Notes: a model not told the origin generated them from the letters alone. A stretch of DNA of 64,000 bases from Hespellia sp. (GCA_028693555.1 JAQUVD010000014.1:1-64000), one strand, 5' to 3'; shown: positions 11,466 through 33,018, counted from the stretch's first letter. A program made the numbers and translations.

Positions 11466-11472
11466 ATTAAGA

Positions 11473-11500
11473 TTGAAAAAAACCTGGGTCATAGTATAAT
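11473..11500 (+). promoter_or_regulatory. Sigma-A-type promoter for the bceRSAB-like operon
   Basis: TTGAAA (11473-11478), a 16-base spacer, then TATAAT (11495-11500), 35 bases before the response regulator start. It begins 7 bases after the stop codon of the MprF-like gene. No terminator is seen between them, so read-through is also possible. Confidence 0.65.
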
Positions 11501-11535
11501 AAAATGGTAAGAAAAACAAAAGATGAGGTACAAGG

Positions 11536-13259: not shown

Positions 13260-13263
13260 GAAA

Positions 13264-14022
13264 ATGAAGGTTTTATCAATAAAAGGACTGGAAAAAACAT
13301 ATGATGGAAAGGTGCCGGTTCGTGCACTCAGAGGAATTAATCTTGAAGTGGAGCGAGGTGAGATGATTGCTATTATGGGACCATCCGGAAGTGGAAAAAG
13401 TACATTTTTAAATGTGATATCCACGATCGATAAGCCAACGAGAGGGCGAGTCAGAATCGGAGGGAAGAATCCACATGAAATGAATGATGAGCAGCTGGCA
13501 TCTTTTCGAAGAAATACATTGGGATTCGTATTCCAAAATTTCAATTTGCTCCCAACATTGACGGTGGAAGAAAATATTATGCTGCCAATGACATTAGAGA
13601 AAGTTCCTGTGGGCGAAATGAAACAGCGTACCGTAGAAATCGCAAAGCTTTTAGGTATCGGGAAACTGCTGAAGAAGAGAACCTATGAAATATCAGGCGG
13701 ACAGGCACAAAGGACTGCTGTTGCGCGGGCAGTTGTTCAGGATCCTGCATTATTGCTTGCAGATGAACCGACGGGAAATTTGGATTCGAAAGCAGCAAAG
13801 GATGTGATGGAATTATTTGGTATGCTGAATAAAAAGAAAAAAACAACGGTTCTTATGGTGACGCATGATGCTTTGGTAGCGAGCTATTGTCAAAAAGTCT
13901 ATATTATCAAAGACGGTATGATTTATCAGGAAATCGTCAGGGAGGGAGATGCACTGGAATTCCAGGAAGAGATATTGAATGCGATGACATTGTTAGGAGG
14001 CGGCAGACATGACACTGTTTAG
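13264..14022 (+). CDS. bceA: ABC transporter ATP-binding protein, BceA-like
   Basis: 252 residues with all nucleotide-binding motifs: Walker A GPSGSGKST (~40), Q-loop FVFQNFNLLP, signature SGGQAQR, Walker B LLLADEPTG and H-loop VTHD. The LNVISTIDKPTRGRV stretch is typical of the MacB/BceA subfamily. Signature position 4 is QAQR instead of the common QQQR. It overlaps the permease gene by 14 bases. It forms the energy unit of a peptide detoxification and sensing transporter. Confidence 0.93.
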   Translation: MKVLSIKGLEKTYDGKVPVRALRGINLEVERGEMIAIMGPSGSGKSTFLNVISTIDKPTRGRVRIGGKNPHEMNDEQLASFRRNTLGFVFQNFNLLPTLTVEENIMLPMTLEKVPVGEMKQRTVEIAKLLGIGKLLKKRTYEISGGQAQRTAVARAVVQDPALLLADEPTGNLDSKAAKDVMELFGMLNKKKKTTVLMVTHDALVASYCQKVYIIKDGMIYQEIVREGDALEFQEEILNAMTLLGGGRHDTV

Positions 14023-16070: not shown

Positions 16071-18923
16071 ATGAAGGTGTCAAATCAAACAAGTCAATCT
16101 TTACAAAAAATACTTACCGGAGTGGTTTGTATTCTCGCCGGGCTCTCGCTGATATTGACACCGTGTGAAAAGGTACACGCGTCGGATGATGTAGCGCAGT
16201 CGGAACGTAAGGTAGTAAAGGTTGGATACAATCCGATGGAAGGATATTTTATGCAGTCGGAGGATGGCATGAAAAGCGGTTACGGATATGACATTACGCA
16301 AAAGATGCTTGTCTATGAAAATTGGCAGTACGATTATGTAGGATATGAAGAAAACTACAGTGAGAATCACATGTTTGATCTTTTGGAGTCCGGCCAGGTC
16401 GATCTGCTCGTTTATGCCTTGAAAACAGAGGATAGAATGGAGAAATTCAGCTATTCGACGCTGCCGGTTGGCTATATAGCCAGTCGGATTATTGCAAAAA
16501 CGGGAAATAATGAATTCTCGGTGAATAACTTCGAAAAATGGGATGGCATAAAAGTTGGTTTTCTTACGGACAGCAGCGAAGGGGAAGCCTTTAGTGAGTA
16601 CGCTGCAAACAACGCATTTACATATCAGGAGGTTGGATATGAAACCCGGGAAGCGTTGGAGAACGCTATCCAACAAGACGAAATAGATATAGCGGTAGCT
16701 CCTAATTTCACAACGTTTGAGAACGTCTGGATCTTGGATCAGTTCGATGAAATACCGGTTTATGCTGCTGTGAATAAAGAAAATTCGCAACTCTTGACGG
16801 AGGTCAATAGTGCACTATCTAAAATAGAATCGGATGACGCAGAGTTTCGGGAAGAACTTTATCGGAAGTATTACGCATCAGATATGGGCAGCGCAATTCC
16901 TTACACGCAGGAAGAAGCCGCTTTTGTAGAACAAAGTGCGAAGGAGAAAAAGGTTTATAAAGCATTAATCAATCCTGACCGAAAACCATTGTCCTATTAT
17001 GAAGAGGGAGAAATGAAGGGCCTTTTGACCGATATCTGTCAGACGATTTTTGAACGTTCAGGGCTCACAGTAGAGTTCATCGTCACGCAGACCCGGGATG
17101 AATATATGGCAGAGATGGATCAGGCTGATATCATATGTGATTTCACCGGTGATTATGGAAAAGCAGAATTGAATGGATTCATACGAACAGATACTTATTA
17201 TAACAGTGCGACGTCCATGCTTCGGCGAAAGGACTATGATGGAACGGGCAACCGGTGTGCAATTGTGGGGAGCAGTATCAGTGGATGGCTGCGGGACAAT
17301 CTGGACGCAGAGTTTATAAGCTATGATTCCGTCGAAGATTGTATACAGGCAGTGATAGATGGTGATGCCGATTTCCTGTATTCTTATACGCGATGTGTGC
17401 AGGACTGGGTCTACTCGGATGTGACGAATTCTCTCGTTGTGGTTGCAGATAATCATCAAAATACAGATTTTTCCCTTGCGGTCAAAGGGAACGAAAACAG
17501 CAATCTGTCCTCGATTCTGGTCAAGAGTATTGGAACCATTACAAAAGAGGATATTTCTAAGACAGCCGATGCCTACACCTATTATCAAAAAGGAAAACCA
17601 ACCTTACTGGCGATGATCTATGCACAGCCGGTTTTCTTTGTGATGGTCATTATATTCGTTGTTATTTTCTTTTTTGGTATGGGATTGTTTCTACTTGGTC
17701 TTCGCCAGAGAAAGCACGATAAAATAAGAAACAAAGAGTTATCACAGGCGCTCGATGATGCAGAAAAAGCAACGCAGGCAAGAGAAGATTTCTTTTCACG
17801 AATCAGTCATGATATGAGGACACCGATGAATAGTATTTTGGGGTTGGTTACTCTTTCCGCCGATGAAACAGATGCGAAGGTGTTAAAGGAAAATATGTAT
17901 AAAATCAGGGAATCAGGAACCTATCTTCTGGGGCTGATCAATGATACCCTCGATTATCAGAAATTTAACTCGGATCAAATGCAATTGCATCCTGAAGTGA
18001 TTTCTATCCGGAAATTGATCCATTCATGCACAGACATGGTAACAGAGAACGCAGATGAGAAAGGGATTACATTTCGAATTGTAAACAAAAATACAAATTT
18101 TGACGGATATGTTCTGGTTGATGTGATGTGCATCAGAAAAATCTTCTTAAATCTTCTTTCCAATGCATTTAAATTTACTGCGGCAGGCGGAACGGTAGAG
18201 CTTGTAGTCGAGGAGCTGGGAAGAGAAGGGAACCTTGTCCATGACCGGATTACCGTGAAAGATACTGGAAGTGGAATGAGTCCGGAATTTTTGGAAGATG
18301 GAATTTTCAAGCCATTTTCGCAGGAGAATAATACAATCACACCGCTGCATGAAGGCACGGGACTTGGTCTGTCTATCGTGAAACAGTTGACAGAGCTTAT
18401 GGGCGCAGAACTGAGTGTAGAAAGTAAATTAGGGCAGGGAACTACGTTTACCATAGAGATAGATTTCGAGACAGTGGAGCGGGGAAAGGCAGAAAACGCA
18501 GAAAATACAGAGCAGACAGAAAAAAACAGGGCGATGTGTCAAATAAAAGGCAAAAACATTCTTCTTGTGGAAGACCATCCTCTGAATGCACAGATCGTTA
18601 CAAAGCTGCTTGAAAAGGCGGGATGTAACGTTACATGGGCAAAAGATGGAAGTGTGGCAGTGGAGCTGTTTGAACAGTCTGAGTTGTCGCAATATGACCT
18701 TGTGTTAATGGATATTCGAATGCCTGTGATGAATGGACTGGATGCAACGAAATACATCCGAAAACTGGAAAGAGAAGATGCCAAAACGATACCGATTATC
18801 GCGTTGACGGCAAATGCTTATGAAGAGGATGTCAAAAAATATAGGGAGGCGGGCATGAATGAGTGTCTGATAAAACCCATTGATCCAAATAAATTGTATG
18901 TGACAATTGCAAGTGTTAAGTAG
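16071..18923 (+). CDS. Hybrid sensor histidine kinase with two extracellular SBP domains
   Basis: About 950 residues. A signal peptide (~1-37) is followed by two tandem solute-binding domains of SBP_bac_3 type (~45-265 and ~285-505), the kind that bind amino acids. A membrane helix (~512-545) leads to HisKA with ISHDMRTPMNS (phospho-His ~577), HATPase with LLSNAFKFT (~693) and GTGLGLSIVKQ, and a C-terminal receiver with phospho-Asp in LVLMDIRMP (~878). ATG 16071 follows AGAGGAA, so the ORF extension upstream to 16017 is not used. It opens a five-gene operon of signalling proteins. No DNA-binding or HPt domain is present, so its phosphate acceptor is unknown. Confidence 0.87.
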   Translation: MKVSNQTSQSLQKILTGVVCILAGLSLILTPCEKVHASDDVAQSERKVVKVGYNPMEGYFMQSEDGMKSGYGYDITQKMLVYENWQYDYVGYEENYSENHMFDLLESGQVDLLVYALKTEDRMEKFSYSTLPVGYIASRIIAKTGNNEFSVNNFEKWDGIKVGFLTDSSEGEAFSEYAANNAFTYQEVGYETREALENAIQQDEIDIAVAPNFTTFENVWILDQFDEIPVYAAVNKENSQLLTEVNSALSKIESDDAEFREELYRKYYASDMGSAIPYTQEEAAFVEQSAKEKKVYKALINPDRKPLSYYEEGEMKGLLTDICQTIFERSGLTVEFIVTQTRDEYMAEMDQADIICDFTGDYGKAELNGFIRTDTYYNSATSMLRRKDYDGTGNRCAIVGSSISGWLRDNLDAEFISYDSVEDCIQAVIDGDADFLYSYTRCVQDWVYSDVTNSLVVVADNHQNTDFSLAVKGNENSNLSSILVKSIGTITKEDISKTADAYTYYQKGKPTLLAMIYAQPVFFVMVIIFVVIFFFGMGLFLLGLRQRKHDKIRNKELSQALDDAEKATQAREDFFSRISHDMRTPMNSILGLVTLSADETDAKVLKENMYKIRESGTYLLGLINDTLDYQKFNSDQMQLHPEVISIRKLIHSCTDMVTENADEKGITFRIVNKNTNFDGYVLVDVMCIRKIFLNLLSNAFKFTAAGGTVELVVEELGREGNLVHDRITVKDTGSGMSPEFLEDGIFKPFSQENNTITPLHEGTGLGLSIVKQLTELMGAELSVESKLGQGTTFTIEIDFETVERGKAENAENTEQTEKNRAMCQIKGKNILLVEDHPLNAQIVTKLLEKAGCNVTWAKDGSVAVELFEQSELSQYDLVLMDIRMPVMNGLDATKYIRKLEREDAKTIPIIALTANAYEEDVKKYREAGMNECLIKPIDPNKLYVTIASVK

Positions 18924-18966
18924 AGAGTACGGTAGATAAAAAAGTTTGAAAGAGGGGATCGAGAAT

Positions 18967-21900
18967 ATGAGGGTACAAAAGAAAAAAAGGATTCAAAGAC
19001 TTATTTATGACGCTTTGCTGGCTGTTATCAGTTTAATACTTCTTTTTGTGCTGCTGATGAGCGTACAGACATATTTTGCGCTTCAGAATCAGCATGATAA
19101 TTCCATCGGAAAATTAAGTGTTGCGGAGCAGAGGTTGGTGACAAATCAGGAAGATGCAGAGGATGTGCTTGACAAATATGATGCATTTTCGCAGGCAAAG
19201 CTTGATACGATTGCATATTACTACCAGTTCAACAAGGATGAAACGATGGATGCGGCTGAATTGCGCAATATGGCAAATCAATGGGAGCTGGATGAATTAT
19301 ATGTGACGGATCAGAACTTTCAGATACAAAACACGTTTAATGGCAGAGAGATTCGCTTTGACAGTGATGATTCGCTGGGCGAAGGAATCAAAGCGGGCAC
19401 GGCTGTGACTGAGGGGGATCTGCGCTATTATGTCTCACAGATTGATTCTGAGAATTATCTGATTGGTGCGCGCAATATTTCCATGATGCAATACACGATG
19501 AGTGATATGACATCGCTGCCTTATTCCCTAAAAACAATCAAGATTGGGCAAAAGGGTTATATCATCGCAGTGAATGTGAAGGATCAGACAATCGCCTATC
19601 ATCCGGATGCTGATTTGATCGGACAATCTCTCAAAGATGCTGATTTTGATTCCTCTGTTATGTCAGATGGATACGAAGGCTGGGCGGAGCTTGGCGGTGA
19701 GAAGTTTTATTGCAATTCCCAGATAAGTGAGGCCTGTCCGGAGTATGAGCTAATAGCAGTCCGTCCACAGAAGATGATCTGGGATTCGATTATTCAGCTG
19801 GTCAATATCGGAATGCTGGTATTTGCTCTTATTATCGCAATTATGATTCTATATATTCATTTTATCCGGGAGGAACACAGCACATTCGATCCAGAATCCC
19901 AGAGTGAGATGCAGTATATTCGTTTCCGGGGGAAATATTATCTGAATCAAACTATGGGTGCCAGAATTGTGCATATTCTTACGTTGGGAGTTCTGATACT
20001 GTTCGGTGCATCCTTTTATCTGCAGTCGCTTTCTGTGCTGTCTACGCAGTTTGCGCATTTTAGTGATAAAAAGACCGATATTATGGCGATCTTTGATGAG
20101 AATGAAGCAAAATTGAAGAAACTGACGGCGGAATATAACACGGAATATGAGCAGCGGGCGTATAATATCGCGTATCTGTTAGCAAAAGATCCCACTCTCA
20201 TGGATGATGAAAAGCTGGACCAGTTTGCAAAGAGGGCGCAGCTGAAATATATTTATGTCTTTAATGGTGATGGTCTTGCGATTGCCGGCAATGGTATTGA
20301 TAAACAGTTTGTACTCAGTACGGATGCGGAATCGCAGTCCTATCAATTTTGGAATGTAGTAAAGGGACATCAGGAATCTCTGATTCAGGAGGCGCAGTCG
20401 GATGATTCATCAAAAGCAGATTACCTGCAGTATATTGGTGTCAGGCGCCCGGATGCAGAGGGCATGGTGCAGATTGCGGTTTCACCGCAGCGTCTGGAAA
20501 ACCGCTTAAAAGCAGTACAGACAAACCATGTATTGAAGCTGATTGCAGTAGAGAATAATGGCTTTTGCATGGCTGTAGACAGTGAGACAAAGAAGGTTGT
20601 ATATTATCCGGATTCTAATTATATTGGTACTTCTGCAACGAAATTGGGATTATCAGAGCGGGCTCTTTCTGATAATTACACAGGATACCAGACGCTGGCT
20701 GGCGTGCAATGTGCGGTGCGGTCGATGCAGTATCAGGATGACTACATCTACATTGTTGCGCCAAGAGCATCCATCACACAGGGACGTCTGGCCATTTCGC
20801 TGATTATCACGCTTGCAGGTTTCATTGTACTGCTTCTGATTACATTTTTCTCAATCATTGGAGATCCGGAGAAGATATCGAAGCAGAGTTTGACGGAAGA
20901 GGAAAATGACGCAAACAAAGAACCGAAAAAAGAACCAAAATCAAGCTTTGAAATCGTGACGGGAAGCGGTGAAGTGATTCAGGCAGATCCGATCCATGAA
21001 AGATGGCGCGCCAAAGCAGAGTGGAAGAGTATGAATGCAGAACAGAAACTGCGCAAGGTAATCAGTGTAACGATTGCCGGACTGGGCATATTGCTGCTGC
21101 TCTATATGATGCTGGGGATGCGAAGCTATGATAATACCTCGGTGTTGTCCTACATTGTTCATAAGAAATGGGAAAAGGTTCCGAACATATTCTCCTTTAC
21201 GTATATTGCAATGATCATGTTGGAGACAGTGGTTGTGTCAAGCATTGTTATCAAGCTGATCTCAATGCTTGTGACGAATTTGGGAGCAAAAGCAGAGACG
21301 GTTGCGAAACTGACATGCAATTTCATCAAATATATTTCGATCATTGGAGCAATCTTCTACTGCCTGACTTTTATCGGCATTAACGGAAAGACGCTTTTGA
21401 CTTCGGCGGGGCTGATGTCGCTGGTGGTTGGTCTGGGAGCACAGTCTCTCATTTCAGATATTCTTGCGGGAATCTTCATTGTATTTGAAGGCGAATTCCG
21501 CGTAGGTGACATTATTACACTTGGAACGTTCCGCGGTACTGTTTTAGAGATTGGAATCCGTTCTACAAAAATCGAAGACTTTAGTCAGGATATTAAGATT
21601 GTCAATAACTCAGATATTACGGGCATCGTGAATATGACGCGAAAGTATTCCTATGCATTCTGTGATGTGGGAATTGAGTATACAGAGTCACTGGAGCGTG
21701 TAGAAACAATTCTGCAGAAAGAGCTGCCACATGTAAAAGAACGACTTCCGGAAATTGAGGCAGGACCGTATTACCGGGGCGTGATCTCATTGGGGGATTC
21801 CAGTGTTGTGATTCGAATACTCGCACAGTGCCAGGAGGTGCATCGTGTGCCGCTTACAAGAGATCTGAATCGTGAAATCAAGCTGATTTTTGACCGGAAC

Positions 21901-22041
21901 AATATTAGTATTCCATTCCCGCAGGTCGTTGTGAACGAACCGCAAAAGAGATCTTCAACAATCAGTCAACACGATAAAATAGCTGCCTCAGAATTTGTTG
22001 CGGAACAAAAAGAAATTACGAAAGATATCCGTCCGCAGTAA
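18967..22041 (+). CDS. MscS-type mechanosensitive channel fused to two Cache-like sensor domains
   Basis: About 1024 residues. TM1 (~14-36), a Cache-like outer domain (~37-275), two helices (~274-300, ~333-355), then a second Cache-like domain (~356-607). Both outer domains end with paired motifs: GYIIAVNVKDQTIAYHPD and GFCMAVDSETKKVVYYPD. More helices follow (~607-631, ~697-717, ~740-805). The MscS pore helix LVVGLGAQSLISDILAGIF (~815-840) and beta domain (FRVGDIITLGTFRGTVLEIG) complete the protein, with the C-terminal IPFPQ typical of MscS. The role is probably a gated ion channel that reads small molecules outside the cell. ATG 18967 follows GAGGGG and is preferred to TTG 18946. The gene is 43 bases after the hybrid kinase. 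Confidence 0.85.
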   Translation: MRVQKKKRIQRLIYDALLAVISLILLFVLLMSVQTYFALQNQHDNSIGKLSVAEQRLVTNQEDAEDVLDKYDAFSQAKLDTIAYYYQFNKDETMDAAELRNMANQWELDELYVTDQNFQIQNTFNGREIRFDSDDSLGEGIKAGTAVTEGDLRYYVSQIDSENYLIGARNISMMQYTMSDMTSLPYSLKTIKIGQKGYIIAVNVKDQTIAYHPDADLIGQSLKDADFDSSVMSDGYEGWAELGGEKFYCNSQISEACPEYELIAVRPQKMIWDSIIQLVNIGMLVFALIIAIMILYIHFIREEHSTFDPESQSEMQYIRFRGKYYLNQTMGARIVHILTLGVLILFGASFYLQSLSVLSTQFAHFSDKKTDIMAIFDENEAKLKKLTAEYNTEYEQRAYNIAYLLAKDPTLMDDEKLDQFAKRAQLKYIYVFNGDGLAIAGNGIDKQFVLSTDAESQSYQFWNVVKGHQESLIQEAQSDDSSKADYLQYIGVRRPDAEGMVQIAVSPQRLENRLKAVQTNHVLKLIAVENNGFCMAVDSETKKVVYYPDSNYIGTSATKLGLSERALSDNYTGYQTLAGVQCAVRSMQYQDDYIYIVAPRASITQGRLAISLIITLAGFIVLLLITFFSIIGDPEKISKQSLTEEENDANKEPKKEPKSSFEIVTGSGEVIQADPIHERWRAKAEWKSMNAEQKLRKVISVTIAGLGILLLLYMMLGMRSYDNTSVLSYIVHKKWEKVPNIFSFTYIAMIMLETVVVSSIVIKLISMLVTNLGAKAETVAKLTCNFIKYISIIGAIFYCLTFIGINGKTLLTSAGLMSLVVGLGAQSLISDILAGIFIVFEGEFRVGDIITLGTFRGTVLEIGIRSTKIEDFSQDIKIVNNSDITGIVNMTRKYSYAFCDVGIEYTESLERVETILQKELPHVKERLPEIEAGPYYRGVISLGDSSVVIRILAQCQEVHRVPLTRDLNREIKLIFDRNNISIPFPQVVVNEPQKRSSTISQHDKIAASEFVAEQKEITKDIRPQ

Positions 22042-22085
22042 CTCAGGAAGATGGAATTGTTTATCAGATTGTAGGAGAAATAAGC

Positions 22086-23849
22086 ATGGAGTTTCAGAGT
22101 AAAAAATATTCATTTCAAAAAGAAGAATTTGAGGTCTATATACAGCCAAAATATAATTTGCATACGAAAAAAATCATAGGTGGTGAGGCGTTGGTTCGCT
22201 GGCAGCACCCCAAAAAGGGACTGCTCTCTCCGGATGATTTTATTCCGATGTTTGAAAAAAATGGTGATATCCTGCTTCTCGATGCATATGTGTGGGAAAA
22301 GACCTGTCAGTATATCGCAGAATGGAAGCAGAAAAAATATCCGCTGGTTCCGATTTCTGTGAACCTGTCTAGAAGTGATTTTGGAAATAAGAATATTGGA
22401 ACCTGTCTGGAAGAATTGATGAAAAAATACCAGTTGGATCACTCGGTTCTGGAGCTGGAAGTGACAGAGAGCATCTATGAAAAGGACAGCGGCTTCGTTT
22501 ATCATGAATTGGAACAATTACAGGACTTCGGATTTCGGATATTAATGGATAATTTGGGGAGTGGACATTCTTCCTTTCACATGTTGAAAGAAGCACCGAC
22601 GGATGCGCTGAAGTTAGACCTGAAATTTTTGCGAGGTTCGGATCAGAAGCATCGTGCGGACAAAATTCTGGCAGCAATGATGTATATGGCAAGACTGATT
22701 GGAATGCCTGTCATTGCAGAAGGGGTTGAGACAAAGGAACAGATTGAGTTACTTAAGGAGATTCGCTGTGATTTGGCGCAGGGATATTATTTTTCAAGAC
22801 CAATACCTGCGGAAGAATTCATAAAACTTCTTCTTTTGCAGGAAGAAGGCGAGGATATGATCGGATGGAGATGCGACGAAAAACAGTATTGCAGCTATGT
22901 CAGAAGCAAGGGAAGAAAACCGGATCAGAAGGGAACGATTCTGCTGGTCGATAAAGCCGGAATAAGCAGGGAGCTTTTGCATACGCTCTTTAAAGACACG
23001 TGCACCCTGGTGTCTACAGCTGACACAGAGGAGGCTGAGGCAATCATAACAGAGAATGATAAAACGATTGATTTAATATTGATCGATGTTTCGTTCATAA
23101 AAGAGAATCTGATCGACCGCTGGAGGAAGAAGCTGGGCAGTGCGAATATTCCGGTTGTGGCTATGACGCAGTCAGATGATGTATCGCAGGCGATATTTGC
23201 TCTGCAGTCGGGAGCTGTGGATTATATTGCAAAACCATTTATTCCTGAAATCGTCACCTCACGAGTGCATTATCTGTTAGAGACTTCTGCAAAAATGAAG
23301 AAGATTGCAAGAGAGCGAAAGAATTATCGATATAGAGCGTCGTTAGACCAGATGACACAGCTATATAACAAAGTCACAATGGAGAAGCTTACGAATGAGC
23401 TGCTTCGCGACTGTTCCAGCCAAAAGCACGCACTGCTGATGTTTGATGTGGATAACTTTAAAGAAATAAATGACACCGGCGGACATCTGGTTGGTGACGA
23501 AACAATCAGACAGGTATCCACCTTTCTTATGACGAATTTCCGGCATGAAGATCTGATCGGGCGAATCGGAGGCGACGAATTTGCGGTTCTGATGAAAGGC
23601 GTGCAGAGCAGACAGCAGGTGTGCGAAAAGGCAGAACGTATGATTCAGGAAATGAAAAATGGCATACTGGGGGACCTGGACAGGAAGGTAACGCTTAGCA
23701 TTGGAATTGTGCTCTATGAAGGAGAAGAAAATACGTATGAGGACTTGATGAAAAAAGCAGACCATGCACTTTATGAGGCAAAGCTTACCGGAAAGAGTAA
23801 ATGGGTTTGTTACAACAAGGAAAAAGAGGAACATGATTATGAAAACTAG
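22086..23849 (+). CDS. Cyclic-di-GMP enzyme with EAL, degenerate receiver and GGDEF domains
   Basis: 587 residues, no membrane segments. The N-terminal EAL phosphodiesterase domain (~10-250) has GGEALVRW, SVNLSR, ELEVTES, LKLDLKF, AEGVET and QGYYFSRP. The usual DDFG is DNLG, which loses one metal-binding Asp. A receiver-like domain (~285-400) has LLVDKAG instead of VDD but keeps the Asp in LILIDVSF and the lysine in IAKPF. The C-terminal GGDEF domain (~415-580) has a perfect RIGGDEF and an RHED inhibitory site, so diguanylate cyclase activity with product inhibition is likely. Its order (EAL first) is reversed from the common GGDEF-EAL. The coding end overlaps the next gene. Confidence 0.88.
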   Translation: MEFQSKKYSFQKEEFEVYIQPKYNLHTKKIIGGEALVRWQHPKKGLLSPDDFIPMFEKNGDILLLDAYVWEKTCQYIAEWKQKKYPLVPISVNLSRSDFGNKNIGTCLEELMKKYQLDHSVLELEVTESIYEKDSGFVYHELEQLQDFGFRILMDNLGSGHSSFHMLKEAPTDALKLDLKFLRGSDQKHRADKILAAMMYMARLIGMPVIAEGVETKEQIELLKEIRCDLAQGYYFSRPIPAEEFIKLLLLQEEGEDMIGWRCDEKQYCSYVRSKGRKPDQKGTILLVDKAGISRELLHTLFKDTCTLVSTADTEEAEAIITENDKTIDLILIDVSFIKENLIDRWRKKLGSANIPVVAMTQSDDVSQAIFALQSGAVDYIAKPFIPEIVTSRVHYLLETSAKMKKIARERKNYRYRASLDQMTQLYNKVTMEKLTNELLRDCSSQKHALLMFDVDNFKEINDTGGHLVGDETIRQVSTFLMTNFRHEDLIGRIGGDEFAVLMKGVQSRQQVCEKAERMIQEMKNGILGDLDRKVTLSIGIVLYEGEENTYEDLMKKADHALYEAKLTGKSKWVCYNKEKEEHDYEN

Positions 23850-26800
23850 ACGGAAGATGCTGATCGTAGATGATATAGAGACAAACAGAGAGCAGTTAAA
23901 AAGTCTGTTCGATGAGGAGTTCCATATCGTGATGGCGAGCGATGGAGCGGAGGCCATAGCACAGATTCGGAAATGGAATGAAGAAATTGCGCTTGTCTTA
24001 TTGGACGTCATTATGCCTGAAATGAATGGAATAGAAGTTCTCAACTGGATTAGAGAAAGTGAATATAAGCAGATACCGGTGATTGCCGTCACATCAGACG
24101 AGAGTTATCAGCTTAAAGCACTGGAGAGCGGCGCGTGGGATTTTATTGCAAAGCCGACAGACAACAGTGTCATACAGGCGCGTGTACATAATGTGATTGG
24201 CCGCTATGCATTTGAAAGAGAGAAGAAACTGGCAGAGACACTGGGATTTTATGACACGCTCGTGAATGAGTCTGATAATGGGATTTATGTGAACGATGCA
24301 CAGACATACGAGTTGCTACATATGAATAAGACGATGCTCAGGCTCATGGGAAAAATGGAGCTTGATTATGCAGGAAAGAAATGTTATGAATTTCTCTTTG
24401 GAAAAACTTCGCCATGTGAATTTTGCAGAATGGATGTGATGTCAGAGGATGCTTTTTTAGAACGTGATTTTGCTTATCCATTTACGAATAAAATCTACTG
24501 TATGCGAGGAAAAATGTCAATTTGGAATGGGATTCGTTCGCATGTGGAATATATTCAGGATGTCACAGAGAATCGAACCATTTCAAAGGAAAATCTGCGT
24601 CTGAAGAAACAGGCGGAGGAGACTTTGGAAAATTACCGGACGATTGTCAATACAGTGCCGGGTGCGATCGCATTATATGAGATAGAAGACGATAAAATAG
24701 TCACGAAGTATTATAGTGATGGATTATGTGCATTGTCTGGATACTCCAGAGAAGAAAGAGATGTTTATAATCAGAAAGATGCAACTGCATTGATTTATAA
24801 GGATGATGTATCTTATGTATTGGAGGAAATCAAGGCGGCTGTAGAAAAGAAATCGAATCTGGATCTGATTTATCGAATTCAAACCAAGAGCGGGGTGCCG
24901 CGCTGTATCAATCTGCGGGCAACGTATGTAGAAAATCCGGCAGGAAAAGTGGCGTTTCATGCGGTTTTCACGGATATAGATGAGCTGAAGCGTTTGGAAG
25001 AAGAGAAAAAGGAACAGCAGCTGCGTTACGAGGTGGCATTGAAAAGCTCCGGCATTAATGTGTGGGAATATGATATTGTAAATGATACGTTGATTGTGGT
25101 ATCGAATTCACCTCGTATCAAACAAAATTGTTTTCTGATTGAACATTATATCCCATCGACGATAGAAAAAGGCTATGTCAGAGAAGACAGCATTCTGGAT
25201 TTTTATGATATATTCAAACGCTTGAATGCGGGAGAAAAAGAAGTCAAAGCTGATATCTGGTATAAAACAAACGATAATCTCGGATTTTGGTGTGAACGTG
25301 TGATTTACACGTCTGTTTTTGATGAGCAGGGTGTTCCAATCAAGGCCTTTGGAGCAGGCAGAGATGTGACCCGCGAGAAAGAGGCGGAAGCCAAATTCAT
25401 GGAAGAAGTTGGATATCGGGAAGTGATTCAAAATCACAAGATTGCTTTTGCAAAGCTGAATCTGAGTAAAAATCTTCTGGTTGATGCAGAACGCGACAGC
25501 CGGCAGCCGGCACAGCTGCCAAAGGTCTGCACGGCTGATCTGTATTTTGAAAAAACATGTGAATCCGTGAGTGGAAATGAAAATAAAACGCGGTATCGAA
25601 ATCATTTTAACCGAAAAAGGCTGTTAAATAAGTTTAGCAGCGGAGAATATACAGAATCACAGAAGTTTACAGTGATTTTTGAGGGAAATCAGGTTTTTTG
25701 GATTGAATATTCCCTGCATCTGATTCAGAATTCGGAAAATCATGATGTCATTGCCTACATTATTTCCAAGGATATCACGGAAGAGATGATGATGCAGACA
25801 ATTATGGATACCGTTACAAAAATGGATTATGATTACTTTGTTGTTGTAAGCGGAGTGACAGATTCCGCACTGGAGTATGCACAGGACAAAAAAGAACGTC
25901 AGATGGATGGCACAGAACCTTTTGAAAAGAAGGCGGAAGAACTTGTTCGGCTTCATGTATGTGCAGAAGATGTAGAACGGGTGGTGGCAGCTTGTAAGAT
26001 TGATGCTGTCATGAATCAAATCAGCGACGGAACCGTGTATAAACTTAATTACAGTATCCAGGAAAAGGATGGCAGCCGCCGCCGAAAACAGCTCCAGTTT
26101 ACGCTGATTGATTTGGAACGGAAAGCGTTTCTAATGAGCCGGATTGATGTAAACGATATTTATCTGGAGCAAAAGAAGGTGCAGGAACAATTGCGCTCTG
26201 CGTTGGAAACGGCAAAACAGGCAAGTCAGGTGAAGTCCGAATTCCTTTCGAGAATGAGTCATGATATGCGAACTCCGATGAATGGAATCATTGGATTGAC
26301 GAATCTTTCCATGAATATCCCGGGGCTGCAGGATGAAATGATGAAAAATCTGTGTGCCATTGAGGATTCCAGTAAGTATCTTTTGAGCCTGATCAATGAT
26401 GTGCTGGATATGAGCAAGATTGAAAGCAACAAAATCGTGCTGAATCCACAAGTGGTTCACGCAGGTGAGTTAATCAACAATACGATTGCTTTTGTAACAC
26501 CGCTGGCGCAGGAAAAAGGGATTGCAATGAAATTCGTTCCGATTCATGTGGATTTGGGTTACATTCGAGTGGACAAGATGCGTCTGGAGCAGATCTTTAT
26601 CAACATATTATCCAATGCAATTAAATTCACACCGGATGGCGGGAAAATTCAGATTGAAATAGAAGCACTGAAAAGAGAGGGCTCCATGGTGGATACCCGA
26701 GTCAGTATTTCCGACACTGGAATTGGCATGACCGAAGAATTTCTGCCCAAATTATTTGAGCCTTTTGTTCAGGAGGAACGCAATGTCTCCACAAATTACA

Positions 26801-27381
26801 CGGGAACAGGACTTGGAATGTCGATCGTGAAAAATCTTGTAGATTTAATGGGTGGAAATATTGAAGTAAAAAGTAAATTGGGACAAGGAACAACGGTTCA
26901 CGTATTTATAAAATTTGAACGAATTTATGATTATGAAAAGATAGAAGAACGGCCTAAGAAAAAGACGAAGGTTTCCCTGCAGGGCAAAAAGATACTTCTC
27001 TGTGAGGATCATCCGTTAAATGCACAGATTGCTGAAAAATTGCTGGAAGGTAAGGGTTGTATTGTTACAATCGCAAGAAATGGAGAAGAAGCAGTTCGCA
27101 TGTTCCAAAAATCAGTCGAACGAGACTTTGATGCGATCTTAATGGATATTCGAATGCCGGTCATGGATGGTTTGGAAGCGTGTAGAAAAATCAGGAAGTT
27201 AAAACGTGAGGATGCCAAAGAGATACCGATTATCGCAATGACAGCAAATGCATTTGACGAAGATGTGAGAATGAGTAAAGATGCCGGAATGAATGCGCAT
27301 CTTGCAAAACCGATTGAACCGCAGAAGATGTTTGATACATTATCAGAGTACCTGAATGAAGAAGGGGGAAATGAAAGATGA
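23839..27381 (+). CDS. Cytosolic hybrid histidine kinase, REC-PAS-PAS-HisKA-HATPase-REC
   Basis: About 1180 residues with no signal peptide or membrane helix. An N-terminal receiver (~1-115, IVDDIETNREQ, LLDVIMPEMNG, IAKPT) is followed by two or three PAS-like domains (~130-235, ~270-390, ~395-520) and a further sensory region. HisKA follows with MSHDMRTPMNG (phospho-His ~806), HATPase with ILSNAIKFTPDG and GTGLGMSIVK, and a C-terminal receiver (phospho-Asp in LMDIRMP, ~1100). ATG 23839 lies 8 bases after AGAGGA and overlaps the end of the EAL/GGDEF gene by 11 bases. It may receive phosphate at the front receiver and pass it on; no final output domain is present. Confidence 0.87.
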   Translation: MKTRRKMLIVDDIETNREQLKSLFDEEFHIVMASDGAEAIAQIRKWNEEIALVLLDVIMPEMNGIEVLNWIRESEYKQIPVIAVTSDESYQLKALESGAWDFIAKPTDNSVIQARVHNVIGRYAFEREKKLAETLGFYDTLVNESDNGIYVNDAQTYELLHMNKTMLRLMGKMELDYAGKKCYEFLFGKTSPCEFCRMDVMSEDAFLERDFAYPFTNKIYCMRGKMSIWNGIRSHVEYIQDVTENRTISKENLRLKKQAEETLENYRTIVNTVPGAIALYEIEDDKIVTKYYSDGLCALSGYSREERDVYNQKDATALIYKDDVSYVLEEIKAAVEKKSNLDLIYRIQTKSGVPRCINLRATYVENPAGKVAFHAVFTDIDELKRLEEEKKEQQLRYEVALKSSGINVWEYDIVNDTLIVVSNSPRIKQNCFLIEHYIPSTIEKGYVREDSILDFYDIFKRLNAGEKEVKADIWYKTNDNLGFWCERVIYTSVFDEQGVPIKAFGAGRDVTREKEAEAKFMEEVGYREVIQNHKIAFAKLNLSKNLLVDAERDSRQPAQLPKVCTADLYFEKTCESVSGNENKTRYRNHFNRKRLLNKFSSGEYTESQKFTVIFEGNQVFWIEYSLHLIQNSENHDVIAYIISKDITEEMMMQTIMDTVTKMDYDYFVVVSGVTDSALEYAQDKKERQMDGTEPFEKKAEELVRLHVCAEDVERVVAACKIDAVMNQISDGTVYKLNYSIQEKDGSRRRKQLQFTLIDLERKAFLMSRIDVNDIYLEQKKVQEQLRSALETAKQASQVKSEFLSRMSHDMRTPMNGIIGLTNLSMNIPGLQDEMMKNLCAIEDSSKYLLSLINDVLDMSKIESNKIVLNPQVVHAGELINNTIAFVTPLAQEKGIAMKFVPIHVDLGYIRVDKMRLEQIFINILSNAIKFTPDGGKIQIEIEALKREGSMVDTRVSISDTGIGMTEEFLPKLFEPFVQEERNVSTNYTGTGLGMSIVKNLVDLMGGNIEVKSKLGQGTTVHVFIKFERIYDYEKIEERPKKKTKVSLQGKKILLCEDHPLNAQIAEKLLEGKGCIVTIARNGEEAVRMFQKSVERDFDAILMDIRMPVMDGLEACRKIRKLKREDAKEIPIIAMTANAFDEDVRMSKDAGMNAHLAKPIEPQKMFDTLSEYLNEEGGNER

Positions 27382-30300
27382 AATATGTAAAAAGACTGGT
27401 GTGTTATATTCTGATTGCCTGCATGATTGTCCAGATACCGATGACGGCAGTGGCAGCAGGGGAAGCAAAAACCGTGAAAGTTGCAGTCATCAATTACCCG
27501 AATTTTATTGAACGGAATGAAGATGACAGTGTCAGCGGTTACGCGGTAGATTATTTGAAAGAGATTGCCGGGTATACAGGATGGAATTACGAGTATATAG
27601 ATATGTCGTTCGGGGAGGCACTGCAGAAGCTTCAGGATGGTTCGGTTGATGTTGTGGCAGGCGTTCAAAAAGCTCCGGGACGTGAAGAACAGTATGATTT
27701 TTCGGAAAGCTCGATGGGCGAAAATGCGGCATTGCTTTGTGTAAAGGCATCAGACGAAAGATATGCGTATCAGGATTATGACAGTTTTTCAGGGCTTCGT
27801 GTTGGGGGAATTGCCGGTTCTGCATATGTTCCGCTTTGTGAAGCGTATATGGAAGAGAAAAATATACCGATTACGATGACGGAATTTCAGACCGATGCAC
27901 AGGCGCGTACAGCACTGCAGTCAGGGCAGGTGGACGCATTGATGATGGGGACGATTCGCTATACGTCCGATTATAAGGTAATTGCAGCGCTGAAGCCAAC
28001 CGATATGTATTTTGCATGTAATCCGCATGACCCGGAAATCAAAGCCGGAATTGATGAGGCACAGATTCAGATTCATGAAACGGATAAATATTATGAAATG
28101 TATCTGGATGAGGAATACTTTGGTGATGTGCAGAATTCTCAGGTGTTTAGCCAGTCAGAGCAGGAATATTTACAAGAGGTGGGTGAAATTAATCTAGGGT
28201 ATGCATCCATTCAGGATCCCGTGTCGTACAAGGATGCCAAAACTGGAGAATTTGCGGGGATGACACGTGCAATCTTAGACCGTATTTCAGAAATCAGTGG
28301 ATTAAAATTTAACTACATTGCTCTGCCGACCGGACCGATTGATTACGATTATCTAAGAGAGAATCATATTGGAATGGTGTCAAATGTGGAATATACGGAA
28401 ATCAACCGTCAGTCAAAAGGAATGATGCTTTCAAAGCCATACCTGAGTGCGCAGAAGGTGTTTGTGGGAAAGTCAGGGGAGGCGTTTGATAAGGATGCGC
28501 AGTATACGGTTGCAATGGCAACCGGCTCTGAGAACATAGAAAAATTTCTACAGACCAAATATCCAAACTGCAAAATTAAAGTGTATGATAGTGTCGAGAA
28601 GAGTTTTCAGGCGGTTTTAAATGGAGATGCGGATTTAGTGATGCAGAATCAGTATGTTGTGACCTATCTGCTGTCAAAACCTCAGTATGAGACTTTATCG
28701 GCATTTCCGGTGGAGGGACTAAGTGATCAGTTATGTGTGAGTTCGATTTATCTTACCGAAAAAGATGGAAGTCCGGATGCACTTCTGTTTGACCCGCGCC
28801 TGATTTCAATCATAAATAAAAGCATTGCACAGATCAGTACCGATGAAACATCAAAGATTATTGCTCAGTACACAACCGGAAAGCCATATCGTCTGAGCAC
28901 AAGTGATGTGTTATATAAGTTCCGGCTGCCATTTACGGTAATTGCGCTGCTGATCGTGATCTGTCTGGTACTGTTTGGGTGTATTCTTAGGATTCGCCAG
29001 AAAAATATGGAAAAAATGAAAGTAAAGAATCATCTTCTTGCGGATGCGGTGGAGCAGGCACAGCATGCGAATACGGCAAAGAGTCAGTTCCTTGCTCGGA
29101 TGAGTCATGAGATTCGCACACCGATGAATGCCATTGTGGGCATGACGGCACTTGCAAAGGCCAAGGTCAATGACGCAGAAAAGACAGTGGAATATCTTGA
29201 TAAAATTGATATGTCTTCCAAGGTATTATTGAATATCATCAATGATGTTCTGGATATGTCCGCAATTGAAAGTGATAAACTAAAGCTGGCTCATAATGAG
29301 TTTGATTTTAAAGAATTGATTACTTCGATTTCTGCACTTTATTATACACAGAGTAAAGAAAAAGGAATTGATTTTCGGATTGTACTGGATAATGTCACAG
29401 ATGAAACGCTGGTTGGAGACAGTTTACGGCTGAATCAGATTATCTTAAATCTGTTATCCAATGCATTAAAATTCACGTCAGCCGGAGGAAGTATTGAATT
29501 AGAAATCAATGAACGCTCCAGAAAAGAGGATAAAGCGTATCTGGAGTTTAAAGTTTCTGATACCGGATGTGGTATGGATGCCGATATGCTAAGCAGGCTG
29601 TTCCAGCCATTTGAACAGGAGAGTGCTGACACCGCACAGAAGCATGGTGGAAGTGGACTGGGGATGTCGATTACGCAGAATCTGATTACCATGATGCAGG
29701 GAACGATTCATGTTGAATCAGAAAAGAATAAGGGAACGACCTTTACGGTCAATCTTCCATTTGGAATTGGAAAAAGCAAAAGTAGTGAGACCACAGAAAA
29801 ACTCAAGTCTGTGAAGGCACTTGTGGTAGATGATGACGAAGGTACGCGTGAATATACGACCATAGTTCTTGACCGAATGAAGATTGCGCATGATCTGGCA
29901 GCCAGCGGACAAGAGGCTCTAGAAATGATTGAAAAAGCGCACGATAACGGCACCGGTTACGATGTGTGCTTTGTTGACTGGAAAATGCCGGGGATGGACG
30001 GAATTGAAGTGACCCGGAGGATTCGTCAGGTGTTTGATGAGGATACCATCATTATCATTGTATCGGCGTATGATTTGTCAGAAGTCGCGGAAGAGGCAAA
30101 AGAAGCAGGAGCAAATTATTTTGTGACAAAACCAATATTCCAATCTACTGTTTTTGACGTCCTGATGAACTTAAGTGGCGGACAACTGGCAGGACAGAAT
30201 ACCGATATGGCGACATATGACTTTGCCGGACACCGCGTATTATTAGCAGAGGACAACGCGATTAACAGAGAGATCGCAATTGATCTGCTTGGTCTGGTAA

Positions 30301-30611
30301 ATTTAGAGGTGGATGCGGTGACGAATGGGGAAGAAGCATATCAGGCATTCATGGAATCCGAGCAGGGAACATATGAAGCAATTCTGATGGATATTCAGAT
30401 GCCGATTATGGATGGTTATGAGGCAACGAAAATGATTCGAGCTTCGGAGCATGCACAGGCCGCCGATATTCCAATCTATGCGATGACCGCGAATGCATTT
30501 ACAGAAGATGTCAATGAAGCACTTAGCTGTGGCATGAATGGACATATTGCAAAACCGATCGATACAGAGATTTTATATGCAACACTTGCAAAATGCTTTG
30601 AGATGAAATAG
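27378..30611 (+). CDS. Hybrid sensor histidine kinase with two SBP domains and two receivers
   Basis: 1077 residues. Signal peptide (~1-27), two SBP_bac_3-type domains (~30-255, ~265-505), membrane helix (~515-538), HisKA with ARMSHEIRTPMNA (phospho-His ~576), HATPase with NLLSNALKFTSAGG (~692) and GSGLGMSI. Two receivers follow: the first with VVDDDEG and CFVDWKMPGMDG (~867), the second with LAEDNAINRE and LMDIQMPIMDG (~1004). It has the same plan as the first gene of the operon plus one extra receiver, so the two probably arose by duplication. Its ATGA start overlaps the preceding stop. It is the last gene before a terminator. Confidence 0.87.
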   Translation: MKYVKRLVCYILIACMIVQIPMTAVAAGEAKTVKVAVINYPNFIERNEDDSVSGYAVDYLKEIAGYTGWNYEYIDMSFGEALQKLQDGSVDVVAGVQKAPGREEQYDFSESSMGENAALLCVKASDERYAYQDYDSFSGLRVGGIAGSAYVPLCEAYMEEKNIPITMTEFQTDAQARTALQSGQVDALMMGTIRYTSDYKVIAALKPTDMYFACNPHDPEIKAGIDEAQIQIHETDKYYEMYLDEEYFGDVQNSQVFSQSEQEYLQEVGEINLGYASIQDPVSYKDAKTGEFAGMTRAILDRISEISGLKFNYIALPTGPIDYDYLRENHIGMVSNVEYTEINRQSKGMMLSKPYLSAQKVFVGKSGEAFDKDAQYTVAMATGSENIEKFLQTKYPNCKIKVYDSVEKSFQAVLNGDADLVMQNQYVVTYLLSKPQYETLSAFPVEGLSDQLCVSSIYLTEKDGSPDALLFDPRLISIINKSIAQISTDETSKIIAQYTTGKPYRLSTSDVLYKFRLPFTVIALLIVICLVLFGCILRIRQKNMEKMKVKNHLLADAVEQAQHANTAKSQFLARMSHEIRTPMNAIVGMTALAKAKVNDAEKTVEYLDKIDMSSKVLLNIINDVLDMSAIESDKLKLAHNEFDFKELITSISALYYTQSKEKGIDFRIVLDNVTDETLVGDSLRLNQIILNLLSNALKFTSAGGSIELEINERSRKEDKAYLEFKVSDTGCGMDADMLSRLFQPFEQESADTAQKHGGSGLGMSITQNLITMMQGTIHVESEKNKGTTFTVNLPFGIGKSKSSETTEKLKSVKALVVDDDEGTREYTTIVLDRMKIAHDLAASGQEALEMIEKAHDNGTGYDVCFVDWKMPGMDGIEVTRRIRQVFDEDTIIIIVSAYDLSEVAEEAKEAGANYFVTKPIFQSTVFDVLMNLSGGQLAGQNTDMATYDFAGHRVLLAEDNAINREIAIDLLGLVNLEVDAVTNGEEAYQAFMESEQGTYEAILMDIQMPIMDGYEATKMIRASEHAQAADIPIYAMTANAFTEDVNEALSCGMNGHIAKPIDTEILYATLAKCFEMK

Positions 30612-30619
30612 TGAGATTA

Positions 30620-30648
30620 AAAAAGAGCCTTTTTTCAGGCTCCTTTTT
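30620..30648 (+). terminator. Rho-independent terminator of the signalling operon
   Basis: GAGCCT (30625-30630) and AGGCTC (30637-30642) with flanking A and T runs form a stem followed by CTTTTT. It lies 8 bases after the last kinase stop codon. Confidence 0.85.
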
Positions 30649-30962
30649 GATGCTCTATGATAAAATTCACAGGCATTTCCGGGTGTAAAATCTTAAAGAT
30701 TCGATTGAAGCGGTTATGAAACCATTGATTCCGTTCTTCTTAGTTACCATTGCAATTCGTGCTAGAATCTTTGTTAAAAGCGAATTCTTTAAATAAATGG
30801 TTTTCCGTTGATATTTAAAGAAAAATTGTTGAAAAGTGCATGAGAAACTCTCTCTGAATTGCAATTTCTATAAATAAAAGAACTTGATAGCAATTTTACA
30901 GAGAAATGATAGAGGATTTTCTTTAAAAGAGAGAGTAAGATAACATATTTATATTATCTTGT
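30649..30962. other. Intergenic stretch without a supported gene
   Basis: AT-rich DNA between the signalling operon and hicAB1. A 65-codon minus-strand ORF (30667-30864) has no ribosome site and low complexity, so I do not call it. No tRNA, riboswitch or insertion-sequence end is seen. A weak hairpin (AGATAA...TTATCT) occurs near 30937-30959. Confidence 0.5.
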
Positions 30963-30993
30963 AAAAAGAATATATTTATGCTATTCTTTTTTT
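30963..30993 (+). terminator. AT-rich terminator-like hairpin
   Basis: AAAAGAATA (30964-30972) pairs with TATTCTTTT (30982-30990) and runs into TTTTTTT. It stands 32 bases before the TGGCGTATCGCCA motif and probably insulates hicAB1 from upstream transcription. Confidence 0.55.
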
Positions 30994-31024
30994 ATAAATA
31001 AGTGGTTCCTCTTATATTTAGTTC

Positions 31025-31046
31025 TGGCGTATCGCCAAATTATTCA
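31025..31046 (+). repeat. TGGCGTATCGCCA hairpin motif, third copy
   Basis: TGGCGTATCGCCA (31025-31037) followed by ATTCA (31042-31046). The same 13-mer plus ATTCA occurs at 62639-62659 and 63523-63543, each time after a terminator-like hairpin and 110-210 bases before a toxin-antitoxin gene. TGGCG and CGCCA pair as a 5-bp stem with a 3-base loop. Confidence 0.7.
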
Positions 31047-31111
31047 AACACATTTAAATTTAGGAAAATATATACCAATCTATTTAGTCAAAGCCGGAAA
31101 TTTTTTACGTA

Positions 31112-31140
31112 TTGACACGTGTGTAATTAGTGTGTATAAT
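31112..31140 (+). promoter_or_regulatory. Consensus promoter of hicAB1 with repeated operator-like spacer
   Basis: TTGACA (31112-31117), a 17-base spacer and TATAAT (31135-31140), a perfect sigma-A promoter 18 bases before hicA. The spacer carries the direct repeat GTGTGTA/GTGTGTA at an 11-base step and the palindrome ACACGTGT. This is where HicB or HicAB would be expected to bind for autorepression (inference). Confidence 0.8.
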
Positions 31141-31158
31141 TCAAGGGAGAAGATTAAT

Positions 31159-31329
31159 ATGAAACGTAGAATACTAATTCAAAAATTGCAAAGCATTGGT
31201 TTCAAACTGCAAAGAAATGGTGGGAATCATGATGTTTATACTAGGGGAAATGATAAGGAAATTATACCAAGACATAAAGAAATTGATGAAAGACTGGCAA
31301 AGGCAATTTTACATAAATGGGAATTGTAG
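31159..31329 (+). CDS. hicA: HicA-family mRNA interferase toxin
   Basis: 56 residues. Small double-stranded-RNA-binding fold of HicA: MKRRILIQKLQSIGFKLQR, then the catalytic histidine in GGNHDVY and the basic IIPRH segment. The family cuts mRNA and is neutralised by HicB encoded next to it. ATG 31159 follows GGGAGA; the longer reading from 31132 would run through the -10 box and is rejected. hicB starts 12 bases later. Confidence 0.87.
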   Translation: MKRRILIQKLQSIGFKLQRNGGNHDVYTRGNDKEIIPRHKEIDERLAKAILHKWEL

Positions 31330-31341
31330 GAGGAGAGCAAT

Positions 31342-31755
31342 ATGAAAATGGTATATCCTGTAATTTTTACACAGACAAAAGATAGAGTACTTGTAGAAGT
31401 GCCTGATATGAGTATCCTGACGGAAGGAAATGATTTGGCAGATGCAATTCTTATGGCGCGAGATGCCATTGGAGTTAAGGGAATTGCAATGGAAGATGAT
31501 GGAGAGAAACTACCAGATGCTTCAAACGTATATGCGATAGATTTAGCGGCAGGTGTATTTAAAGCAGAAGGAAAAGCAATCCTGTCTATGGTTGATGTTG
31601 ATTTTGATGAATACAGAAGACGAAATGATAATAAATCTGTCCGCAGAAACGTTACGTTGCCCAATTGGTTGAATAGGGAAGCTGAAAAGGAGAAGATTAA
31701 CGTTTCGAAAGTACTGCAAGAAGCGCTGATGTCGCGGCTGGGTGTATACAGATAA
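31342..31755 (+). CDS. hicB: HicB-family antitoxin with ribbon-helix-helix DNA-binding end
   Basis: 137 residues. The N-terminal half is the partly degraded RNase H fold of HicB (YPVIFTQTKDRVLVEVPDM, then the EGNDLADAILMARDAI helix). The C-terminal ~45 residues form a ribbon-helix-helix motif, VRRNVTLPNWLNREAEK...VLQEALM, used for autorepression. The AGGAGAG ribosome site is strong. It binds HicA and probably the promoter at 31112-31140. Confidence 0.88.
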   Translation: MKMVYPVIFTQTKDRVLVEVPDMSILTEGNDLADAILMARDAIGVKGIAMEDDGEKLPDASNVYAIDLAAGVFKAEGKAILSMVDVDFDEYRRRNDNKSVRRNVTLPNWLNREAEKEKINVSKVLQEALMSRLGVYR

Positions 31756-31823
31756 TTTTGGGGTTGTCAAAATGCTGAAAAACGATTAATCTAAAGACAG
31801 ACTTTAGGAGAAGAGGTGCAGCG

Positions 31824-32990
31824 ATGTATAATTTTGACAAGGTAGTAGATAGAAGGAACACAGGATCTTTAAAATGGGACGTGAAGGACAATGAACTTCC
31901 GATGTGGGTCGCGGACATGGATTTTGAGACTGCACCTGAGATTCTGGAGTGTATCAGGAACCGGGTATCTCACGGCATCTTCGGGTATCATATTATTACA
32001 GAGGACTGGTATGGGGCATATGTGAATTGGTGGAAGAAGATGCACCGGTTTGAAATGCAGAAGGAATGGCTTATTTTTGCAACGGGTGTGATTCCTATTT
32101 TGTCGAGTGCAGTCAGAAAGCTTACAACAGTTGGCGAAAATGTGGTGATTCAGACTCCCGTGTACAATAATTTTTTTAACTGCATCCAGAACAACGGAAG
32201 AAATGTACTGGAAAGTCCACTGATTTATGAAGAGGGAGTCTATCGGATTGATTTTGACGATTTGGAAAAGAAGCTTGCAGATGAACAGACCACACTGATG
32301 TTTTTATGTAATCCGCATAATCCGATCGGTAAGATATGGAACCGGGAAACACTGCAGAAGGTGGGCGAGCTGGCGGCGAAACATCATGTTATTGTCATTT
32401 CAGATGAGATCCACTGTGATCTTACGGCACCGGGAAAGGAATATGTTCCATTTGCTTCCGTGTCGGAAATCTGCCGTGAGAACAGCATCACCTGCATTGC
32501 ACCAACCAAAACATTTAATATTGCAGGAATCCAGAGTGCAGCGGTCGTGGTCCCGAATGAAGTGCTGAGACACAAAATGTGGAGAGCACTCAACACGGAC
32601 GAGGTGGCAGAGCCGAATACTTTTGCGATTCCAGCAGCCGTTGCAGCATTTGAAAAAGGTGGAGCATGGCTTACAGAATTGAAAAGTTATCTCCAGACCA
32701 ACAAGGAAATGGCAGAGCAGTTCCTGAAAGAAAATCTTCCAGAGCTTCGAATTGTGTCGATGGAAGCGACGTATCTCTTATGGATTGACTGCAGCAGAAT
32801 CACGAATGATTCCGGGGAGCTGGCAGAATACATCCGGGAAAAAACGGGATTGTATCTGACCAGGGGCGATGCATATGGTGAGAGCGGCAAAACATTTCTG
32901 CGATGGAATGTGGCGTGCCCCAAAGCGCTGCTTATAGATGGGCTGGCACGGATGAAAGATGGCGTGAATCAGTATAAAAACAGATTATAA
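31824..32990 (+). CDS. MalY/PatB-type PLP-dependent C-S lyase or aminotransferase
   Basis: 388 residues of fold-type I PLP enzyme. Family features: MWVADMDFETAPEI near residue 30, SDEIHCDL before the cofactor site, and the PLP lysine in APTKTFNIAG (~236). The N-terminal FDKVVDRRNTGSLKWD is typical of MalY/PatB. Members cleave cystathionine or cysteine to a thiol or H2S, pyruvate and ammonia, or act as transaminases. Nearby Rrf2/CymR, MetY and CysK suggest a role in sulfur amino acids. A second copy of this family lies at 47260. It has a GGAGAAGAGG ribosome region. Confidence 0.87.
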   Translation: MYNFDKVVDRRNTGSLKWDVKDNELPMWVADMDFETAPEILECIRNRVSHGIFGYHIITEDWYGAYVNWWKKMHRFEMQKEWLIFATGVIPILSSAVRKLTTVGENVVIQTPVYNNFFNCIQNNGRNVLESPLIYEEGVYRIDFDDLEKKLADEQTTLMFLCNPHNPIGKIWNRETLQKVGELAAKHHVIVISDEIHCDLTAPGKEYVPFASVSEICRENSITCIAPTKTFNIAGIQSAAVVVPNEVLRHKMWRALNTDEVAEPNTFAIPAAVAAFEKGGAWLTELKSYLQTNKEMAEQFLKENLPELRIVSMEATYLLWIDCSRITNDSGELAEYIREKTGLYLTRGDAYGESGKTFLRWNVACPKALLIDGLARMKDGVNQYKNRL

Positions 32991-33018
32991 TAAATGAACT
33001 ATAGAAAGGAAATATGTG

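Follow-up and report, generated by a model that had tools for sequence, protein, structure and literature searches.

In Pseudomonas, the Roc network comprises the hybrid kinases RocS1 and RocS2, the c-di-GMP phosphodiesterase RocR, the RocA regulators, and HptA (PMC12051241). A run of five genes (P1–P5) that we found in a genome of 3.59 Mb of Hespellia, a gut-type bacterium of the Lachnospiraceae, within a 64-kb stretch of DNA referred to below as the window, resembles this network in the linkage of sensor hybrid kinases to a receiver-EAL c-di-GMP enzyme, Roc itself being branched and having its HPt in trans (PMC12051241). It differs from Roc in that its enzyme, P3, is an EAL-REC-GGDEF protein with a damaged receiver, and in that the run has no linked HTH regulator but includes a channel gene. 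The kinases P1 and P5 are similar to BvgS of Bordetella in carrying tandem Venus-flytrap (VFT) sensors of the SBP3 type on a hybrid kinase. Unlike BvgS, they are devoid of a C-terminal HPt, have one (P1) or two (P5) receivers instead, and no PAS domain was detected in either of them. The channel, P2, shares the pore helix and beta domain with members of the MscS family (3t9n/3udc, E. coli MscS, MscK, and YnaI), whereas its pore is preceded by two large, predicted extracellular dCache sensors, which are chemoreceptor-like. Channels of the MscS family are usually seen as tension valves. Stimulation of transmembrane receptors by free solute-binding proteins (SBPs) is known (PMC9602780); compared with such SBP-assisted receptors, the candidate receptor here is an MscS channel, and it is linked to an SBP by gene adjacency only.

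The five co-oriented ORFs (Table 1) span positions 16071-30611 on the + strand and are all open across 14.5 kb. P1 is separated from P2 by 43 nt and P2 from P3 by 44 nt, while P3 and P4 overlap by about 11-17 nt and P4 and P5 by 4 nt (ATGA). Alternative starts exist for P1 (a longer one, ATG at 16017), P2 (a possible TTG at 18946), and P4 (23833 or 23839). The initial annotation, made from the sequence of the window, had described five head-to-tail genes with gaps of 43-44 nt or overlaps and one terminator at their end, and this was confirmed by the ORFs and by the hairpin after P5. No terminator hairpin comparable to that at 30625 was found on the + strand of the P1-P5 intergenic regions, and the number of terminator-like and promoter-like matches across the operon region was close to the chance level. 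The spacing makes it probable that P1-P5 form a single operon; the sizes of gaps by themselves do not establish a single P1-P5 transcript. The count of three His kinases and of five intact receivers with one degenerate was upheld by our motif and Pfam check: H-, N-, and G-boxes are all intact in P1, P4, and P5, and the receiver motif DD...D...T/S...K is intact once in P1, twice in P4, and twice in P5, the single receiver of P3 being the degenerate one. The Pfam scan of the five proteins also agreed with the annotation in finding no HTH and no HPt match in any of them.

Table 1. Features of the five-gene run and its 3' surroundings (positions in the window).
Feature	Position	Strand	Basis
P1, SBP3-SBP3-TM-HisKA-HATPase-REC hybrid kinase	16071..18923	+	Pfam
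P2, predicted TM-dCache-TM-TM-dCache-TM + MscS channel	18967..22041	+	Pfam, relatives, AlphaFold2 model
P3, EAL-REC-GGDEF enzyme	22086..23849	+	Pfam, motif comparison with 15 relatives
P4, cytosolic REC-PAS-PAS-(unassigned)-HisKA-HATPase-REC hybrid kinase	23833..27381	+	Pfam
P5, SBP3-SBP3-TM-HisKA-HATPase-REC-REC hybrid kinase	27378..30611	+	Pfam
Probable intrinsic terminator, GAGCC..GGCTC hairpin (30625-30642) + CTTTTT	30625..30648	+	Sequence
Stretch missing in congener G003 (P3-P5, HicAB, aminotransferase)	22042..33000	+	Protein-comparison synteny, junction alignment

Results of our analysis make it moderately likely that two modules, P1-P2 and P3-P5, have been joined in a lineage-specific manner to give P1-P5; the fluxes and ligands, the choice of partners, and the activities of enzymes that we assign to them below are all inferred. 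The gene order was compared in four Hespellia genomes, that of the window included, and the order P1-P5 was found in none of the three other ones (G001, G002, and G003), so that the check in relatives proposed in the initial annotation turned out against a conserved order. G001 has an ortholog of P1 (88%) in matching surroundings and nothing of P2-P5 there, G003 has P1 (85%) and P2 (88%) followed, 121 nt on, by a homolog of the window gene 33016, and G002 has only a homolog of P2 (64%), which stands alone. We counted this occurrence of P1 alone, P1-P2, and P2 alone for the division into modules. Full-length relatives of P2 in G029, G267, G111, G227, G178, G352, G194, and G357 have no P3-P5 adjacent to them. 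Since P2 of G003 is followed by the homolog of gene 33016, the intervening stretch of the window is absent there in one piece. The short intergenic region after P2 in G003 contains 46 nt that resemble the first receiver of P5 (78%, 35.6 bits), and none of 2000 dinucleotide shuffles scored as high. This footprint, which is a single and short similarity, speaks for the loss of a kinase gene from this place in G003 and not for a gain in the window, and hints that the five-gene order may be older than one lineage. Horizontal acquisition of P3-P5 was considered on the grounds of base composition and dismissed, as GC and GC3 showed no difference from the neighbours.

The region 3' of the rRNA/tRNA cluster is highly variable. 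A block encoding a two-component system as well as an ABC transporter whose permease is of the FtsX type (Bce-like; window 6089-15910) is present in G001 and missing from the matching place in G003. A HicA toxin/HicB antitoxin pair, identified with Pfam (window 31156-31755), lies just 3' of the operon, within the stretch missing from G003. On the opposite strand, a gene encoding a periplasmic-binding-protein domain fused to GGDEF (window 37435-39333) has no homolog on the G003 contig. In the P1 ortholog of G003 (L171 5607-8500), a small deletion shifts the reading frame at the phosphorylation motif of the receiver, which represents either a true loss or an assembly error in a low-coverage MAG.

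In SBPs specific for amino acids, an Arg holds the carboxylate and an Asp holds the alpha-amino group of the ligand. Tandem VFT sensors precede HisKA-HATPase-REC in both P1 and P5, and the second VFT of P5 matches best VFT2 of BvgS (4q0c, E 6e-13). In a MAFFT alignment to AncQR, the Arg/Asp positions read R/P in the first VFT of P1 and R/G in that of P5, and both residues are missing in the second VFT of either kinase. The Asp is missing in every one of the 36 VFT domains compared, which come from the kinases and from one fused enzyme. As the VFTs of P1 and P5 lack the Asp, amino-acid ligands appear less likely for them than for the solo SBPs described below, and the amino-acid-like ligands initially proposed for the kinases were not borne out. 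In an SBP-SBP-GGDEF-EAL fusion (G000:C36, L149 164-3082), the same VFT sensors are connected directly to a c-di-GMP enzyme, with no kinase in between.

The most unusual member of the operon is P2. Its MscS pore and beta domain can be assigned from sequence with certainty, the Pfam family PF00924 (MS_channel_2nd) being matched above the cut-off (5.6e-16) and the MscS structure 3udc being matched by the P2 profile at 2.4e-54. Pfam called no Cache domain in P2, and the dCache_1 matches of its relatives are all under the Pfam cut-off of 45 bits. The AlphaFold2 model of P2, built on an 11-sequence alignment (pLDDT 74.7, pTM 0.54), matched in the Foldseek search both MscS 3t9n and the dCache chemoreceptor McpB (E 2.8e-8), and it is with moderate strength that we assign both extracellular parts of P2 as dCache-like. 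Full-length members of the P2 family occur in about 12 Clostridia genomes among those sampled, and our literature search for the combination of Cache and MscS gave no relevant paper.

In G111, G178, G227, and G352, a solo SBP_bac_3 gene is located directly upstream of the P2-type channel gene, the two genes overlapping or being 12 nt apart, and no ABC transporter genes were recognised beside these pairs among the neighbours scanned. Because the respective genomes contain only 4, 4, 4, and 10 SBP_bac_3 domain matches, chance is an unlikely cause of this repeated adjacency, yet three of these pairs are clearly orthologous to one another, their SBPs being 57-60% and their channels 52-59% identical. 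The solo SBPs of G111, G227, and G178 keep both the Arg and the Asp in the alignment to AncQR, and for this reason their ligands are likely to be amino acids. In G111 (L059 7554-12260), the solo SBP_bac_3 gene, the dCache-MscS channel gene, and an aquaporin-family gene follow one another on the same strand.

Module 1 would comprise an extracellular-ligand hybrid kinase and, beside it, a channel that bears two dCache sensors on the outside of the cell. Most likely, P2 would release solutes or ions when a ligand, or an SBP domain loaded with its ligand, binds to these sensors, and this would either supplement or replace opening in response to tension. Tentatively, and with more doubt than confidence, one may propose that dCache-dCache-MscS proteins are ligand-gated channels driven by a dedicated SBP, and that Hespellia has swapped the solo SBP for a VFT hybrid kinase, thereby joining gating to phospho-signalling. 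An SBP together with a dCache-MscS channel would in that case be a two-gene bacterial analogue of glutamate-receptor channels, by function and not by descent. That the VFTs of P1 are recent kin of the solo SBPs was ruled out by BLAST, so the adjacency of P1 and P2 may have nothing to do with the pairing of solo SBPs and channels. Moreover, P2 is not linked to P1 in G002 and G029, which argues that P1 is not essential to P2.

Most relatives of P3 from Hespellia and G029 are REC-GGDEF-EAL-REC-GGDEF enzymes of about 860-1040 aa, in which the N-terminal receiver is intact, the first GGDEF is degenerate, the EAL domain has the DDFG motif, and the second GGDEF is intact. P3 is without the N-terminal REC and the first GGDEF, and by this comparison it is a shortened enzyme of the same type, which has lost its phosphorylatable receiver. 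Its EAL domain retains EALVR, LK, AEGVE, and QG, and has DNLG in place of DDFG, the latter being kept in nearly all of the 15 relatives compared. In a solved EAL enzyme, the M2 metal is bound by the second Asp of DDFGTG (PMC5301497); hydrolysis is not necessarily abolished by the D-to-N replacement in this motif. The P3 receiver, in which VDK replaces VDD and the phospho-Asp, Thr, and Lys are retained, was not classed as phosphorylatable, and it forms a long branch in the receiver tree (2.6 changes per column). The D13K variant of CheY is poorly phosphorylated and constitutively active, and the same change inactivated EpsW (PMC4671073); as these outcomes differ, the effect of VDK in P3 is not predictable with certainty. 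With one receiver damaged and the other lost, phospho-control of P3 is doubtful, and of the five proteins P3 is the least suited to it. In the cyclase part, GGDEF and the RxxD I-site are intact (RHEDLIGRIGGDEF). Probably, P3 is a diguanylate cyclase uncoupled from its receiver, and within module 2 it would most likely act as such, being inhibited by its product, weakened as a phosphodiesterase, and subject to little phospho-control. The host genome encodes 20 GGDEF domains, so P3 is one among many. No c-di-GMP riboswitch was found within the window, and the genome-wide search for the c-di-GMP-I riboswitch gave no match, the control set being equally silent, which makes the latter result uninformative.

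The route of the phosphate may be approached through P4 and the HPt genes. P4 matches at 50-51% the REC-PASn-hybrid kinases that head kinase dyads or triads in G001, G002, and G003. In a tree of 105 receiver domains, the finer forks of which are limited by few columns, the N-terminal receiver of P4 falls within the receivers of c-di-GMP enzymes (40 rows, support 99/86), whose group is distinct from that of the kinase-tail receivers (43 rows, support 96/92). Hybrid kinases adjoin c-di-GMP enzymes in six further loci of four genomes (L129, L137, L138, L142, L143, and L151). In one of them, an HPt gene of G029 (L142 3811-4179; G029:C98:45954; Pfam Hpt 2.3e-10) lies between two SBP hybrid kinase genes, just upstream of a REC-GGDEF-EAL-REC-GGDEF enzyme gene. 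L143 encodes a kinase that matches HPt weakly, two genes upstream of another such enzyme. The HPt identity of a 139-aa ORF between the kinase and the enzyme in L138 of G002 was rejected. The host genome has only two HPt genes, both single-domain orphans located on other contigs (C74 and C80), versus at least 13 hybrid kinases, counted in the loci examined. These two genes and the HPt gene of the matching G029 cluster deprive the lack of HPt in the operon of the meaning ascribed to it in the initial annotation. The HPt gene inside the G029 cluster supports a kinase-receiver-HPt-receiver relay, in which, as we infer, HPt acts in trans in Hespellia. Our search for literature on hybrid kinases and c-di-GMP in Lachnospiraceae gave nothing relevant. 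Triads of hybrid kinases, composed of REC-PASn-HK-REC, PAS-HK-REC-REC, and SBP-SBP-HK-REC, are conserved in G001:C122 (L131), G002:C44 (L141), and G003:C47 (L135); the genes of these triads overlap and are accompanied by no other output gene. A kinase dyad is present in G003:C52 (L136).

Module 2 would be a c-di-GMP enzyme surrounded by hybrid kinases, which would autophosphorylate in response to a ligand or to cytosolic PAS cues and pass the phosphate to their own C-terminal receivers, from there to the unlinked single-domain HPts, and finally to receivers elsewhere. The targets of HPts may include the N-terminal receiver of P4, the intact receivers of the paralogous REC-GGDEF-EAL-REC-GGDEF enzymes with degenerate first GGDEF, and possibly transcription regulators. 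That the kinases feed mainly the two orphan HPts, by way of which they would reach unlinked DNA-binding response regulators, with the channel and the enzyme co-regulated and not phospho-controlled, seems rather unlikely to us: the excess of hybrid kinases over HPt genes and the HPt branch points of the Roc network (PMC12051241) speak for it, but the recurrent linkage of kinases to c-di-GMP enzymes points to c-di-GMP as one output at least.

We consider quite unlikely the integrated circuit of the initial annotation, i.e., one dedicated complex of P1-P5 through which ligand and membrane tension would set the level of c-di-GMP and the flow of ions, with neither an HPt nor a transcription step. 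It agrees with the tight spacing, the single terminator, and the operon being free of HTH and HPt, and a part of it stands, namely the coupling of kinase genes to c-di-GMP enzymes, which recurs in the six further loci and to which the c-di-GMP-enzyme type of the P4 N-terminal receiver may be added; the G003 footprint suggests, in turn, that a kinase gene formerly followed P2 there too. However, the five genes are not one conserved unit in any of the three congeners, the damage to one P3 receiver and the loss of the other make its phospho-control doubtful, and HPts are encoded in trans in the host and in cis in G029. Two observations that the annotation itself had listed as contrary to its proposal, the absence of the order in relatives and an HPt partner gene elsewhere, were partly made, the latter in the G029 cluster. 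It is very unlikely that the run is a decaying or accidental assembly whose members have little function in common, with an inactivated P3 and unrelated neighbours, since the long branch of the P3 receiver and the unconserved gene order, which would fit it, are opposed by five ORFs open over their whole length, by intact kinase, GGDEF, and I-site motifs, and by translational overlaps between genes.

In the reading preferred by us, that of two joined modules, the five genes form a patchwork that is specific to the lineage and made up of known modules. The cluster illustrates the shuffling of hybrid kinases, HPts, and c-di-GMP enzymes in Lachnospiraceae, where such signalling has been little studied. 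Of greatest interest is the MscS channel that carries sensors and has an SBP neighbour in relatives; with two chemoreceptor-type sensors and a co-encoded SBP, the nutrient response of some MscS channels becomes directly testable.
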